DNA from: a virus
Reading direction: 5' to 3' (one strand)
Length of the DNA: 45,111 nt
IMG/VR virus record: IMGVR_UViG_3300021379_000269
Location: 1-45,111 of that record
Shown here: positions 2,006-16,426 of the stretch, one piece after another
Numbering within the stretch: position 1 is the stretch's first letter
How the letters are laid out: each line of letters opens with the position of its first letter
Made by a program: the position numbers and the translations under genes
Notes under the pieces: generated by a model
What the model saw: the letters and a program-made list of their open reading frames with translations, nothing else
The model's database searches: none
What the model was told of the DNA's origin: nothing

Positions 2006-2020
2006 ACCTCTTTCTCTCAA
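2006..2020 (-). promoter_or_regulatory. Shared leader element overlapping the RBS
   Basis: The minus strand reads TTGAGAGAAAGAGGT, close after the predicted transcription start and including the Shine-Dalgarno GAGG. Related elements lie at 2731-2748, 7131-7143, 8311-8323 and 9223-9237, in the leaders of other early-type transcripts. The loop of the candidate RNA at 2800-2900 is complementary to it: UCUCUCAA pairs with TTGAGAGA and ACCUC with GAGGT. Confidence 0.6.
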
Positions 2021-2031
2021 CTTACATAGCA

Positions 2032-2060: not shown

Positions 2061-2317
2061 GCACTTTTGTAATATTTGTTGTAAATTATTTTTATTTTAT
2101 CTAACTCTGGATGTTTGTGTATCCACTGGCCAGTAGAAGGATTGAATTCTGTCTTGAAGAAATTATCCATCTTTTCATTGCCTGTAGACTCATTCACCTT
2201 TATTTCTCTACAAAGACTATCAAAGTCTGCATCACTCATAATAGAATCATTTTCCATTTCATATGCATATGCAGCGACTGACAATTTAATTCTATTTCTT
2301 ATTTCTTGATTGATCAT
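2057..2317 (-). CDS. Conserved phage protein, 86 residues
   Basis: Begins MINQEIRNRIKLSVAAYAYE, then SIMSDADFDSLCREIK and a C-terminal TGQWIHKHPELDKIKIIY. This arrangement is familiar from T4-like marine phages, but I know no function for it. The MSDADFD segment superficially resembles the N-terminal lead-in of NAD-dependent DNA ligases, without a catalytic lysine. It overlaps the SprT-like gene by four bases (ATGA). Its stop codon is built into the -35 box of the next promoter. Confidence 0.75.
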   Translation of the reverse strand: MINQEIRNRIKLSVAAYAYEMENDSIMSDADFDSLCREIKVNESTGNEKMDNFFKTEFNPSTGQWIHKHPELDKIKIIYNKYYKSA

Positions 2318-2727
2318 AAAATATCAGCATCCCATACTAACTGAGCAAGTTTGTCTTGCATACGATATGCTTCCTTTTCCCAAGGCAAGTCGTAGTATGC
2401 AGTCTTAGGGTCGACTTTTCTACCCTTCCAGATTTCACCATAACCACAAGTTTCTTTGCGATAATACTGCTTAACATGAACCATCTCATGACACAGTGTG
2501 GTTACAAAATCTTTAAGGGTTAGGTCTTTACTCACTTCGATTGTGAACTCTTTGTTGGTATCTTCCATCATACACCAACCAACTGCATCACCAGTTAGTT
2601 TTTTAATCTCAACTACAATCTCCAAAGTGCGAACACGAGGGAGTAGAGCCGAAATCATTTCGTAGATAGTCTTTTCAGCGATTTCTCTCTGAAAACGATT
2701 TCCACCAGTGACTTCAATAATGTTCAT
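2314..2727 (-). CDS. SprT-like zinc metalloprotein
   Basis: A 137-residue protein with the zinc-protease signature HEMVH in TTLCHEMVHVKQYYRKE (about residues 82-98). The two His would bind zinc and the Glu would be catalytic. A later Tyr/Trp-rich segment ends in DLPWEKEAYRMQDKL, where the third ligand Glu may lie. The pattern fits SprT-like metallopeptidases, the fold of DNA-protein crosslink proteases such as SPRTN. Its leader has TTTGAGAAATGAGGTGTT between the promoter at 2759-2787 and the ATG. Confidence 0.75.
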   Translation of the reverse strand: MNIIEVTGGNRFQREIAEKTIYEMISALLPRVRTLEIVVEIKKLTGDAVGWCMMEDTNKEFTIEVSKDLTLKDFVTTLCHEMVHVKQYYRKETCGYGEIWKGRKVDPKTAYYDLPWEKEAYRMQDKLAQLVWDADIL

Positions 2728-2730
2728 AAA

Positions 2731-2748
2731 AACACCTCATTTCTCAAA
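2731..2748 (-). promoter_or_regulatory. Shared leader element before the SprT-like gene
   Basis: The minus strand reads TTTGAGAAATGAGGTGTT. TTGAGA and GAGGTGTT are complementary to UCUCAA and AACACCUC in the loop and adjoining stem of the candidate RNA encoded just upstream (2800-2900). Confidence 0.55.
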
Positions 2749-2799: not shown

Positions 2800-2836
2800 A
2801 AAAAAAAAGCCCTGTAAAATCAACGATTTACAGGGC
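2800..2836 (-). terminator. Strong intrinsic terminator
   Basis: A 10-bp perfect stem GCCCTGTAAA/TTTACAGGGC with an 8-base loop, followed by nine T on the minus strand. It ends the short transcript that starts near 2900 and also the endolysin transcript, just before the next promoter. Confidence 0.9.
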
Positions 2837-2900
2837 TTCAAAGGGTATGGTGAGAACAACTTGAGAGAGAGTTGAGAGAGAGGTGTTGCCCTCACCATTC
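2800..2900 (-). ncRNA. Candidate phage small RNA with tandem CUCUCUCUCAA loop
   Basis: A roughly 100-nt transcript is bounded by a sigma70-like promoter (2905-2933) and an intrinsic terminator (2800-2836). Bases 2885-2898 pair with 2847-2860 as a continuous 14-bp stem (two G-U pairs). The 24-nt loop (2861-2884) contains CUCUCUCUCAA twice in tandem plus ACCUC. The loop is complementary to TTGAGAGA and GAGG(T) in leaders at 2006, 2731 and 9223, partly to those at 7131 and 8311, and to GAGAGAGAG before the ATG at 16426. No phage RNA of this kind is known to me. Regulation of translation initiation is inferred, not shown. The only reading frame through it also runs through the terminator, so I treat it as noncoding. 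Confidence 0.65.
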
Positions 2901-2904
2901 TTTT

Positions 2905-2933
2905 ATAGTATCCGAAAGGACACTAAATGTCAA
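2905..2933 (-). promoter_or_regulatory. Promoter of the candidate small RNA
   Basis: TTGACA (2928-2933), 17-bp spacer, TACTAT (2905-2910). The TGA within TTGACA is the endolysin stop codon. The -35 box lies in the loop region of an inverted repeat (CACTAAA and TTTAGTG). The only thing downstream before a terminator is about 100 bases of noncoding sequence. Confidence 0.65.
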
Positions 2934-3439
2934 CACATTTTTAGTGCCTCTTCTGTGGTTTCTTTAACTCTGCGAGTCCAACCACGACCAAAGGTTTCAA
3001 ATGTGGAAAGTTGCTCATAGTATCCTTGTCGAGCATCTTGATACGCCTTGATGGTTTCTTCCAAACCATTCTCTTCGACATATTCATTTACCTGTCGTAA
3101 AGTGTTAGGGCCAATAGCACCATCAGCACCGGCACCAACAAGATTTTGTAGATACTTAGCGGCTCGCCCAGTGCCAGCATTAACACCGAAATCGAACACA
3201 CACAGATCCAAACCACTAGGTAGTTCATCGCCTTTTACCCTTCCCCAATAGTTCTTTTCATAGATAGGTGCGACATCCTCAACCGTTAGGTCTTTCATGT
3301 CTTTAGTTCCACCCCATTCCTCATAGACTCTTTTAGTGACTCCAAGATTGGTTTCGCCGCCAGGGTCTTTTGGATGGTTTACATACCCACCTTCATGGTG
3401 AAGTATCATTTCCAAACAATGTTGATAATTTTCTTTCAT
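2930..3439 (-). CDS. Endolysin, GH108 N-acetylmuramidase
   Basis: A 169-residue muramidase that cleaves peptidoglycan. The GH108 signature is near the N-terminus: HHEGGYVNHPKDPGGETNLGVT (positions about 14-35), whose EGGY glutamate is the expected catalytic acid. The C-terminal half (DFGVNAGTGRAAKYLQ, DGAIGPNTLRQVN) matches the peptidoglycan-binding region that follows in this family. Length is normal and no signal peptide is seen, so export would need a holin. AAGGAGTT precedes the ATG. The spanin genes are about 13 kb away, so the lysis genes are not in one cassette. Confidence 0.92.
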   Translation of the reverse strand: MKENYQHCLEMILHHEGGYVNHPKDPGGETNLGVTKRVYEEWGGTKDMKDLTVEDVAPIYEKNYWGRVKGDELPSGLDLCVFDFGVNAGTGRAAKYLQNLVGAGADGAIGPNTLRQVNEYVEENGLEETIKAYQDARQGYYEQLSTFETFGRGWTRRVKETTEEALKMC

Positions 3440-3894: not shown

Positions 3895-4752
3895 TTAAAA
3901 GTCTCCAATGTCATTCATGAGATTTCTCAATCTCTTTTTTATAAAATAATTTAGTAGTTTTGATCTTTCACCTTTTGGGGGATTCTGATATTCCTCTAGA
4001 ATCTTACCCTTCAAGTCACTTGGAATACAATCCAAATCAATCAAAGTTTTATTGCGTTGATAGTTTCGCAACATCTCCTCACTACAAAAATCTTCTGGTT
4101 CAAGGTCTTTCCAAGTTTCCAGTTTCTTCTTTGTAAGCGGTTTCTGACGCAACTCATCTACAAATGTATTGTCAGACGATAAGAAGTTAGGAATACCATC
4201 ACTCCTGTCGCCCTTCAATATGTGCTCTTTAATATATATATGAGGATCTTGTCCGTTTACAAATTTCTTCTGAACTGGACTATACTGTTTTACAAAGTTG
4301 TGTTTCTGCAACTGTATAAAGTCCTTGTCACCAGAGAGAACTAAGACATTTTCGTATTCTGATGGTGTTACAGAAATATGTTCGATAATTGCTGCAATGC
4401 AATCATCTGCTTCTGCACCCTCTACTTCTAATACTTTATAGGGAAAATTGTCTCTTATCTCATCTCTAATATTATTTAGAGTTTCAAAGATTGTAGCCCA
4501 ATCGAGTCCAGATGCTTCTCTATCTTTCTTTCGATTAGATTTATAATTGGGGAAGTATTCTCTTCTCCAATATTTTTTGCTGTCATAACAAAGAACCAAT
4601 TCACCATATTCTTCATAAAACCTAGAACGATACATTCTAAGTGAATTAAGAACCATGTGACGAACCAAATCTTCATCGACATCATTTTTTCGTGAACCAA
4701 TTTGCATCATCAAATTACTGATAGTGACTTGGTTCATATCAACTAGTATCAT
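3895..4752 (-). CDS. rnh: RNase H, 5'-3' exonuclease of the FEN family
   Basis: A 285-residue homologue of T4 RNase H, which removes RNA primers and flaps from lagging-strand fragments. Acidic metal-binding motifs appear in order: MILVDMNQV at the start, CYDSKKYWRREYFPNYKSNR (about 54-73), the cluster VEGAEADDC (about 109-117), VLSGDKDFIQL (about 137-147) and LKGDRSDGIPNF. These are the usual PIN/FEN carboxylates. Length is near T4's 305. It has its own promoter at 4784-4812 and an AAGGTG ribosome binding site. It works with the helicase, primase and polymerase found in this window. Confidence 0.93.
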   Translation of the reverse strand: MILVDMNQVTISNLMMQIGSRKNDVDEDLVRHMVLNSLRMYRSRFYEEYGELVLCYDSKKYWRREYFPNYKSNRKKDREASGLDWATIFETLNNIRDEIRDNFPYKVLEVEGAEADDCIAAIIEHISVTPSEYENVLVLSGDKDFIQLQKHNFVKQYSPVQKKFVNGQDPHIYIKEHILKGDRSDGIPNFLSSDNTFVDELRQKPLTKKKLETWKDLEPEDFCSEEMLRNYQRNKTLIDLDCIPSDLKGKILEEYQNPPKGERSKLLNYFIKKRLRNLMNDIGDF

Positions 4753-6976: not shown

Positions 6977-7129
6977 TTACTCCTTCACTTCCATAATAAA
7001 TTCACCACTTCCAAAAAGTTCAAACCCACCTTCACATTTTGTAATCTTCACATAGGTTTCTAGAACTTCACACATTAGTTTTGCGGCACCGATTGCCTCT
7101 TCTAAAGTTTCATAAATCACAATTTTCAT
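6977..7129 (-). CDS. 50-residue hypothetical protein
   Basis: Begins MKIVIYETLEEAIGAAKLMC and ends GSGEFIMEVKE. It looks like a small alpha/beta fold with two cysteines and no recognised family. It is the first gene after the promoter at 7155-7183. ATG 7129 has GAGG too close for a normal ribosome binding site; the in-frame GTG nine bases further on has better spacing and may be the real start. Confidence 0.65.
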   Translation of the reverse strand: MKIVIYETLEEAIGAAKLMCEVLETYVKITKCEGGFELFGSGEFIMEVKE

Positions 7130-7154
7130 TCCTCTTTCTCACACATTACTTCTT

Positions 7155-7593: not shown

Positions 7594-7762
7594 TTGCCAT
7601 CTCCTTTTCCATTTCATATTCAAATTTACGAACTATGTCCTTCTTTTCAATGAGAAGTTTTTCAACTGCCCACAGAGCAGCATACTTCTCATCAGAAGCA
7701 CCTTCGTTCATTGCAATCACAAGATTCTCAAGAACCTCAATATCACGAATCACATCATTCAT
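7568..7762 (-). CDS. EGASDEK-family small protein A
   Basis: A 64-residue protein from ATG 7762, which overlaps the preceding stop (TAATG). It contains LENLVIAMNEGASDEKYAALWAVEKLL. The same LEN-x-I-x-EGASDEK core occurs in the gene at 8714-8950, so the two are paralogues from an old duplication. Function unknown. Confidence 0.7.
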   Translation of the reverse strand: MNDVIRDIEVLENLVIAMNEGASDEKYAALWAVEKLLIEKKDIVRKFEYEMEKEMANDTQEIAA

Positions 7763-8304
7763 TATGCAGCATCCTTCCATTCTTTATAAGTTACAATATT
7801 TTCCAACTTCTTCACAAGTTCCCTACCATACTCTGTAAACAGAATATTGTAGTCATAAACCCAACCTTCCACATCTTGTATGTGGTAGAACTCTTGTCCA
7901 GCAGTCAACCAACGCAGTGCAGTTTCTTCATCACCAGCACCCAAGTCGATAGTTTTCTGAACAAGTTCTTTGAACTCTTCTACCTGTTCAGAGTAGAACT
8001 TCTGTTCCCTTTCATACTCTTCGTTAGCGACTTTACAAAGATGTTCATACTCCTCTTGGAGTTCTTCGTCAGTCATGTTGTCGAAATCATAATGACGACC
8101 TTTCACACCATATGCATCCTTGTGTGTTTCATACACAGACATTTCTAGCATATGACGATCATACTGAGCAGGAGTGGTAATACCATACTCTTTCCAGTGT
8201 TCCAGATCGGTAGTAATCATACCAGCCCAACTGCCTGGATTTGCATCAATCCACTCTTGGGTTTTGGCATTGATTGCCTCGATATGTTTAACTAAGTCAT
8301 TCAT
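7762..8304 (-). CDS. Hypothetical protein, 180 residues
   Basis: An acidic, largely helical protein starting MNDLVKHIEAINAKTQEWID. A long helical stretch EELQEEYEHLCKVANEEYER precedes EETALRWLTAGQEFYHIQDV. No domain recognised. It is first after a perfect consensus promoter (8334-8362), with leader element TGAGAAATGAGGTG before the ATG. Confidence 0.75.
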   Translation of the reverse strand: MNDLVKHIEAINAKTQEWIDANPGSWAGMITTDLEHWKEYGITTPAQYDRHMLEMSVYETHKDAYGVKGRHYDFDNMTDEELQEEYEHLCKVANEEYEREQKFYSEQVEEFKELVQKTIDLGAGDEETALRWLTAGQEFYHIQDVEGWVYDYNILFTEYGRELVKKLENIVTYKEWKDAA

Positions 8305-8310
8305 AATTTC

Positions 8311-8323
8311 ACCTCATTTCTCA
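8311..8323 (-). promoter_or_regulatory. Shared leader element before 8304
   Basis: The minus strand reads TGAGAAATGAGGT, nearly identical to the leader at 2731-2748, between the promoter and the ATG. The GAGG is the ribosome binding site. Confidence 0.5.
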
Positions 8324-8333
8324 CTATACTTAC

Positions 8334-8960: not shown

Positions 8961-9218
8961 TTAGTTAATCCACTCTAGGCTGTTGTCTTTAAGAATGATG
9001 TCTCTAACTCTTTCTCTGTCAAGTGAGTCACCACCACCCCATGTCATTTCATCGTTTAGAGATGCAATGTATTTCTTAGTAGCATTCAAAACCATTCTGT
9101 TAGTCATACCTTTAATTGGGTAGATACCAGATTTTGCATTGTAGAATGAATCTACATATGAAACGAAATCACAGATTTCTGAAACGATTTCATCAACATT
9201 TGAAACGATTTGAGTCAT
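8961..9218 (-). CDS. Hypothetical protein, 85 residues
   Basis: Begins MTQIVSNVDEIVSEICDFVS, then GIYPIKGMTNRMVLNATKKY and a charged SLDRERVRDIILKDNSLEW end. It is the first gene after the promoter at 9249-9277. No family recognised. Confidence 0.7.
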   Translation of the reverse strand: MTQIVSNVDEIVSEICDFVSYVDSFYNAKSGIYPIKGMTNRMVLNATKKYIASLNDEMTWGGGDSLDRERVRDIILKDNSLEWIN

Positions 9219-9222
9219 AATT

Positions 9223-9237
9223 TATCCTTTCTCTCAA
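9223..9237 (-). promoter_or_regulatory. Shared leader element before 9218
   Basis: The minus strand reads TTGAGAGAAAGGATA. TTGAGAGA is an exact complement of UCUCUCAA in the candidate RNA loop at 2861-2884. AAGGA is the ribosome binding site. Confidence 0.5.
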
Positions 9238-9248
9238 TTTCTATATAC

Positions 9249-15845: not shown

Positions 15846-16426
15846 TATTTAACCTGTGCGTTTACCTTACGGTGTCCATTCCATGCAACGAATCCACCCA
15901 ATCTCAATGCCCAATATGCAAGGTAGTTAAGAAAGTGAAATCCATTCTGTTCTATATTTATATCTCTGAATATAACATCAGCATCCTTTTGTGTCAAGAT
16001 GCCCATTGTTCCTTTGCCTTTTTTCTTGAGTGTTTCATATTTGTATGCATAGTCATGAACAAGTCCACCCATCAATAGGACACCAACTGGTGATAACCAT
16101 GTATGAAGAAACTTAGGAATAGATGCACCATCAAACTGGAAACCTTTAGGAATAACATATTCGACACCATCTATTTTATAGTGCCAGTCCTTTGCGATTT
16201 CCCATTGACGAGAACCCATCAACCACATCCAGATTGCACCCCAAAATCCTTTACCGGCCGTTGGGATTGCGATTGGTTTCATGTGTGGCATTTCAGTATA
16301 TTCAAAACCAATTCTTTTATTTTTATTGTCTACACCAAAAAGGTTGATTGCCCAACCTATAATAATAAGAATACCTACAACGGTAAATTGCCACCAAGTG
16401 ACAAGTTGTTCTAGTATGAAGTCCAT
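15845..16426 (-). CDS. DUF1353-like protein with N-terminal membrane helix
   Basis: A 193-residue protein. Residues 10-30 are a membrane helix (WWQFTVVGILIIIGWAINLF). The rest has the DUF1353 pattern: YVIPKGFQFDGASIPKFLH (about 91-109), MGGLVHDYAYKY (His-Asp-Tyr) and DADVIFRDI. The conserved His/Asp residues suggest a hydrolytic or metal-binding site. DUF1353 genes are often near phage lysis or tail genes. GAGAGAGAG runs right up to the ATG and is a perfect complement of CUCUCUCUC in the candidate RNA at 2800-2900. Confidence 0.8.
   Translation of the reverse strand: MDFILEQLVTWWQFTVVGILIIIGWAINLFGVDNKNKRIGFEYTEMPHMKPIAIPTAGKGFWGAIWMWLMGSRQWEIAKDWHYKIDGVEYVIPKGFQFDGASIPKFLHTWLSPVGVLLMGGLVHDYAYKYETLKKKGKGTMGILTQKDADVIFRDINIEQNGFHFLNYLAYWALRLGGFVAWNGHRKVNAQVK

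Follow-up and report, generated by a model that had tools for sequence, protein, structure and literature searches.

The T4 phage turns off many of its early mRNAs at the start of translation by means of two proteins, the RegB endoribonuclease and the RegA repressor, with RegB inactivating early mRNAs by cutting inside the Shine-Dalgarno GGAG (PMC3014915). The same 2010 review of T4 post-transcriptional control records no small trans-acting RNA functionally characterised from that phage (PMC3014915). In alpha-proteobacteria, AbcR1/2 and NfeR1 are short trans-acting RNAs that carry a pyrimidine anti-Shine-Dalgarno (anti-SD) seed and have their sites at the ribosome-binding site (PMC8844928). 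Phages also encode RNAs of their own: c4 of phages P1/P7 (RF01695) is an antisense RNA controlling a phage gene (PMC2864571; PMC12197685), and lambda PreS and vibriophage VpdS are described in PMC12197685 as sRNAs active in infection. The hairpin RNA that we describe here, from a 45,111-nt viral stretch analysed whole (hereafter the window), appears neither in the accessible text of that 2025 phage sRNA review (PMC12197685) nor in the accessible text of the genome paper (PMC9004378) for Melnitz, the nearest cultured relative, which carries it too.

The element lies on the minus strand of the window (2933→2800), between a GH108 endolysin gene upstream (2930..3439, minus strand; Pfam PF05838, 106.8 bits) and a gene for a SprT-like metalloprotease (2314..2727, minus strand), the conserved downstream neighbour, whose Pfam SprT-like match (E 5e-5) scores 23.5 bits, slightly under the 25.6 cut-off, and which is served by a separate promoter at about 2787-2759. 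A sigma70-type promoter (2905..2933, minus strand; TTGACA-17-TACTAT) places its -35 TTGACA at 2933-2928, overlapping the TGA stop codon of the endolysin gene, and its -10 TACTAT at 2910-2905, separated by a 17-nt spacer. There follows a hairpin (2847..2898, minus strand; covariance-model match 73.4 bits) with a 14-bp stem, AUGGUGAGGGCAAC/GUUGUUCUCACCAU, in which 2898-2885 pairs with 2860-2847. The stem carries a 24-nt pyrimidine loop, ACCUCUCUCUCAACUCUCUCUCAA (2861..2884, minus strand), made of two CUCUCUCAA units in tandem; this is the proposed seed, kept across varying stems, and folding gives it an unpaired probability of 0.999. An intrinsic terminator predicted from the fold, AAGCCCUGUAAAUC..GAUUUUACAGGGCUUUUUUUU, closes the element (about 2801..2838, minus strand). 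For the 105-nt stretch the folding energy is -40.1 kcal/mol, as against -18.2±3.0 in shuffles (z = -7.3; 0/200 shuffles as low). A sequence-only reading of the window had described a sigma70-like promoter right after the endolysin gene, a 14-bp stem presenting a 24-base loop with a tandem repeat, and a strong terminator closing a noncoding stretch of about 100 bases; each of these is present.

Over the element, no family of Rfam 15 reaches its gathering cut-off, c4 antisense RNA (RF01695) included, and in the whole window three tRNAs alone score above cut-off. A permissive Rfam search gave sub-threshold matches only at the element, the best on the same strand being suhB/mmgR (RF00519) at 23.9 bits, well under its gathering score of 41.

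Might the region instead be a small coding gene? The window does hold a 42-aa ATG-initiated ORF at 2770-2898, the Melnitz annotation places a CDS (CDS_66) over the hairpin, and many members have an ATG in the 5' arm. Counted from the first ATG, however, the frame of the CU block is not constant, each of the three being used (by 17, 8 and 6 members); 13 of the 44 lack an ATG at that place, indels of 2 nt separate close relatives (L011/L030, L001/L014), and stem covariation (below) outweighs any coding signal. With no reading frame conserved across members we rejected this explanation, which we regard as exceedingly improbable. The Melnitz annotation in question (QZI94798.1; MZ577097.1, 38547-38726), which overlies the hairpin RNA, is probably spurious.

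The same anatomy recurs in 44 distinct hairpins of marine T4-like phages, including the cultured Methylophilales phage Melnitz (Kyanoviridae; locus L145), where the element likewise follows the endolysin gene; scans of IMG/VR by loop pattern and by endolysin protein supplied dozens of further members. Melnitz is the sole complete cultured genome with the element in this analysis, most of the other data being contigs. A script called a promoter at 41 of the 44 distinct hairpins, and a T-run terminator, judged on sequence only, follows 28. Nine (L098, L100, L101, L006, L030, L015, L005, L111 and L020) have a tRNA-Gly 6-12 nt downstream, so that their 3' end would be set by tRNA processing. Covariance model R1 detects the hairpin once each in the window and Melnitz, and not at all in phages Mosig and HTVC008M (L153). 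A nucleotide search of cultured phages with two divergent variants returned no match. Viral contigs without an endolysin-linked hairpin, searched in full, yielded only the variants of L089, L138/L140 and L155, the remaining weak matches in those contigs having a different structure. A loop-pattern scan of cellular genomes turned up no hairpin of such anatomy among the matches listed, from at least 118 genome loci; a cellular origin of the element was discarded, there being no equivalent hairpin among those matches.

What is conserved across these members is the loop, and what varies is the stem. The Melnitz stem (AUGGAUGGGAAUUC/GAAUUCCCAUCCAU) is almost wholly different from that of the window, with a loop that is nearly the same. 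In a hand-picked, nearly gap-free alignment (A2), changes on both sides of the stem occur at 12 of 15 pairs and 94% of cells pair, against 37-57% in controls with slid partners. A model-based alignment of 34 distinct sequences (A3), which, unlike A2, leans towards the model, gives compensatory double changes at 14 of 15 pairs and 94.3% pairing (0/500 shuffles); across both alignment tests slid partners pair at 37-63%. The loop is thus conserved across hairpins whose stems are rewritten. Judged by these comparisons, the hairpin is a conserved, structured noncoding RNA family, previously undescribed. The covariation search that the sequence-only reading had suggested finds a stem rewritten by compensatory changes, a loop that is kept, and early leaders complementary to that loop.

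We turn to these leaders, taken as those of genes that closely follow a sigma70 promoter, with promoters called by a simple rule. When the 74 gene starts of the window are ranked by complementarity to the loop, five of the top six places go to early-promoter leaders, of which the window has six (p = 2e-6). The best of the five predicted targets is the leader of a 66-aa gene (1800-2000), whose box AAGUUGAGAGAAAGAGGU (2006..2023, minus strand) offers a 10-nt perfect match to the loop, with a duplex energy of -22.0 and a net of about -21.5 kcal/mol after opening of the mRNA. The others, all on the minus strand, are the leaders of the gene at 6977-7129 (7130..7148; net -13.0 kcal/mol), of the gene at 8961-9218 (9219..9242; 8-nt perfect match, net -11.3 kcal/mol), with a box that is kept in L073, of the gene at 7762-8304 (8305..8327; net -10.9 kcal/mol), with a box that is kept in the L035 and L136 orthologues, and of the SprT-like gene, whose box UUUGAGAAAUGAGGUG (2733..2748) has a net of -9.1 kcal/mol. 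The sixth early leader, at 4752, is not complementary to the loop (net -3.1). The purine matches pointed out from sequence in the leaders at 2006, 2731, 7131, 8311 and 9223 are these five among the top six of the 74 starts. A further match had been noted before the ATG at 16426, where GGAGAGAGAG abuts the start of a DUF1353 gene and 9 nt are complementary to the loop: the match itself is real, and as a target it is probably a chance one, there being no early promoter and the homologues in Melnitz and HTVC008M missing the GAGAGAGAG element.

The presence of the SprT-like gene in this list raises the question of whether the RNA regulates that neighbour only, the remaining matches reflecting a shared style of leader. 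SprT synteny across divergent phages would fit such a restricted role, as would two pairs of loci (L138/L281 and L286/L300) in which the hairpin sits in the SprT 5' UTR with 8 and 12 nt complementary to its ribosome-binding region; of the five matches in the window, however, that of the SprT leader ranks last and that of the gene at 2000 first. We consider regulation of SprT alone unlikely.

The complementarity is not a property of leaders in general. Over all gene starts of the window, the loop does no better than shuffled loops (-7.25 vs -7.31), and GAGAGA is only mildly commoner there than in hairpin-free phages; with so slight an enrichment in whole-genome counts of leader motifs, a regulon spanning all genes was rejected. 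Early leaders, by comparison, share a GA box that starts near the predicted 5' end (for example GUAAGUUGAGAGAAAGAGGUAAAUU-AUG at 2000). Those of Mosig and HTVC008M are similar in layout but have AUGAAAAAGGA and no GA box. GAGA occurs in 101 of 174 early leaders of hairpin phages and in 7 of 36 of hairpin-free phages (Fisher 3e-5), a contrast that may reflect few independent events since both hairpin and GA box follow phage lineage. Pairing energies between each phage's own loop and its early leaders average -10.76 kcal/mol, as against -8.98±0.26 for shuffled loops (0/100); in the same energy test, the early leaders of hairpin-free phages are no different from shuffles. The excess survives removal of the last 8 nt (z about -11) or 12 nt (z -6) before the AUG, and a small excess is left when the last 14 nt are trimmed (z -2.3). 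Melnitz on its own shows early-leader enrichment (p = 0.0018), with early leaders making up only 3 of its 11 most complementary starts, and control phages are not significant. Part of the complementarity signal is due to ordinary Shine-Dalgarno sites, which are likewise stronger in early leaders (16S anti-SD p = 0.0013). The signal, as computed, is confined to early-promoter leaders. Together with the covariation of the stem, this confinement supports the earlier suggestion of an antisense-type RNA acting against a group of early genes; a sponge for early-gene leaders is the alternative.

Two further explanations dispense with the phage leaders as principal partners. The loop is a nearly pure (CU)n tract, duplicated and held open, and could act as a decoy, capturing a host protein that binds pyrimidines, for instance Rho (through YC-dinucleotide sites) or ribosomal protein S1, both of which favour (CU)n-like pyrimidine RNA; the complementarity to leaders would then be incidental. 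A decoy leaves unexplained why it is early leaders specifically that are complementary, and why, in variant RNAs (below), downstream elements match loops that have changed to CAUC, CAUUUC or CAUCAU, and we hold it to be very unlikely. The loop also resembles the 3' end of 16S rRNA (ACCUC..), and the anti-SD RNAs already known have cellular mRNAs as their targets, so that silencing or redirection of host mRNAs might be its main task and phage leaders mere side targets. The Shine-Dalgarno sites of Melnitz and the window are mostly AGGAGA, which is not specially complementary to the loop, and such a host-directed role seems to us distinctly unlikely.

Variant RNAs, obtained by using the L138 SprT-like protein as query, inform on the relationship between loop and purine element. 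Across the family the synteny of the element is with the SprT-like gene rather than with the endolysin gene. In L286/L300 and in L138/L281 the SprT-like gene carries the hairpin in its 5' UTR, and the loop, altered in both, is complementary to the SprT ribosome-binding region (UCUCAUUUCUCU/AGAGAAAUGAGA, 12 nt, and UCUCAUCU/AGAUGAGA, 8 nt, respectively); in L089 and L357 the loop instead matches a second hairpin downstream in the same RNA (UCUCAUCAU/AUGAUGAGA and UCAUCAUAA/UUAUGAUGA, 9 nt each). Loop and downstream purine element have thus changed together in four related lineages, with perfect complementarity of 8, 12, 9 and 9 nt. When ten loops were compared, the own loop was best or equal best for each of the four downstream elements; shuffled loops equalled the cognate match in 110, 10, 67 and 19 of 5000 for the four lineages, and the four cognate pairings give the top total of 24 permutations (1 in 24 on permutation alone). 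Swapping loops among the free-standing RNAs gives p = 0.24 by energy and 0.037 by match length over 28 types, and p = 0.05 and 0.03 over six groups; these are weak results from a test of low power, because all free-standing loops fit the shared GA box.

The two-hairpin RNAs (L089:1580-1720 and L357:9850-10000), in which 9 nt of the first hairpin's CU loop are an exact complement of the second hairpin's loop region, may possibly form an internal kissing or pseudoknot switch. A second, larger free-standing type of about 120 nt is found upstream of SprT (L310:5767-5895, with equivalents in L336, L329, L323, L321, L319, L324, L327, L292 and L326); it has an extra outer helix, AAAGACUU/AAGUCUUU, around the CU loop, a conserved GUGAUUYGC segment and a terminator, and its primary sequence is highly conserved, unlike that of the window type. 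The 3' part of this larger RNA has in common with the SprT leaders of L096, L103, L100 and L128 a GGUGAUUCGC-like segment. At L345:10882 and L347:10882, a CU-loop hairpin and terminator come right after the stop of a gene downstream of SprT, with no clear promoter; they may be a version derived from a 3' UTR, or else coincidental.

From structure, conservation and complementarity, all products of sequence analysis, we infer transcription, pairing in the cell and repression along the following lines. The segment 2898→2801 would be a free-standing phage small RNA of about 97 nt, with an early sigma70 promoter of its own and a 3' end at the intrinsic terminator or, in relatives, at a directly adjoining tRNA. 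Its long stem would be a mere scaffold presenting the open, duplicated, anti-SD-like loop, which would pair in trans with a UUGAGAGAAAGAGGU-like GA box lying across the ribosome-binding site, close to the 5' end of early mRNAs, among them those of the adjacent SprT-like gene and of four others in the window. As the stable RNA accumulates, binding of the 30S subunit would be blocked and the early genes turned down. That it is an early-made antisense RNA covering the ribosome-binding sites of early phage mRNAs and turning them down is the reading we think somewhat probable. Repression is the mode of action suggested by analogy, because the anti-SD seeds of AbcR1/2 and NfeR1 repress at ribosome-binding sites (PMC8844928), and early shut-off the role likewise suggested, because T4 RegB and RegA turn off early mRNAs (PMC3014915).

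Pairing of the RNA with early leaders could also have the opposite outcome, activation or protection, with a covered 5' end shielding early mRNAs from host RNases. The GA box begins within a few nucleotides of the predicted 5' end, and pairing there could stop 5'-end-dependent decay; the same box overlaps the ribosome-binding site, however, so that pairing should block translation too, and the experimentally tested anti-SD-loop RNAs, AbcR1/2 and NfeR1, repress (PMC8844928). We judge protection to be quite unlikely.

Returning to repression, we see about an even chance that the broader picture holds, in which a group of T4-like phages would shut off an entire class of its early mRNAs by RNA instead of protein, with a single RNA whose duplicated anti-SD loop, borne on a stem free to evolve, matches a leader box built into early promoters; in other lineages this RNA regulon would have moved into the SprT 5' UTR. 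The family spans contigs of marine T4-like phages together with Melnitz, a globally distributed phage cultured on Methylophilales H5P1. The proposal is concrete and testable: a candidate switch, made of RNA, by which lytic phages would control early genes. It also offers an example in which loop, scaffold and targets are all readable from sequence alone.

Set against the described systems, the phage RNA resembles AbcR1/2 in that their aSD1 (CUCCUCCC) lies in a hairpin loop, and NfeR1 in its redundant seed copies. Those RNAs differ in being cellular, in silencing transport and metabolism genes and in having CUCCUCCC as seed, where the phage RNA has (CU)n, predicted viral targets and no Rfam match. 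The c4 RNA is processed from its target's own transcript and has a single target; it is an RNA of temperate phages, whereas the element here has its own promoter and terminator, several predicted targets and, again, no Rfam match. PreS and VpdS are described as Hfq-linked and as acting chiefly on host genes or host sRNAs (PMC12197685), in contrast to a predicted target set made up of the phage's own early genes. The RegB profile PF10715 had no match in six records, with controls equally silent. In the job proposed, the RNA would be a counterpart of T4 RegB and RegA, differing in that these are proteins.
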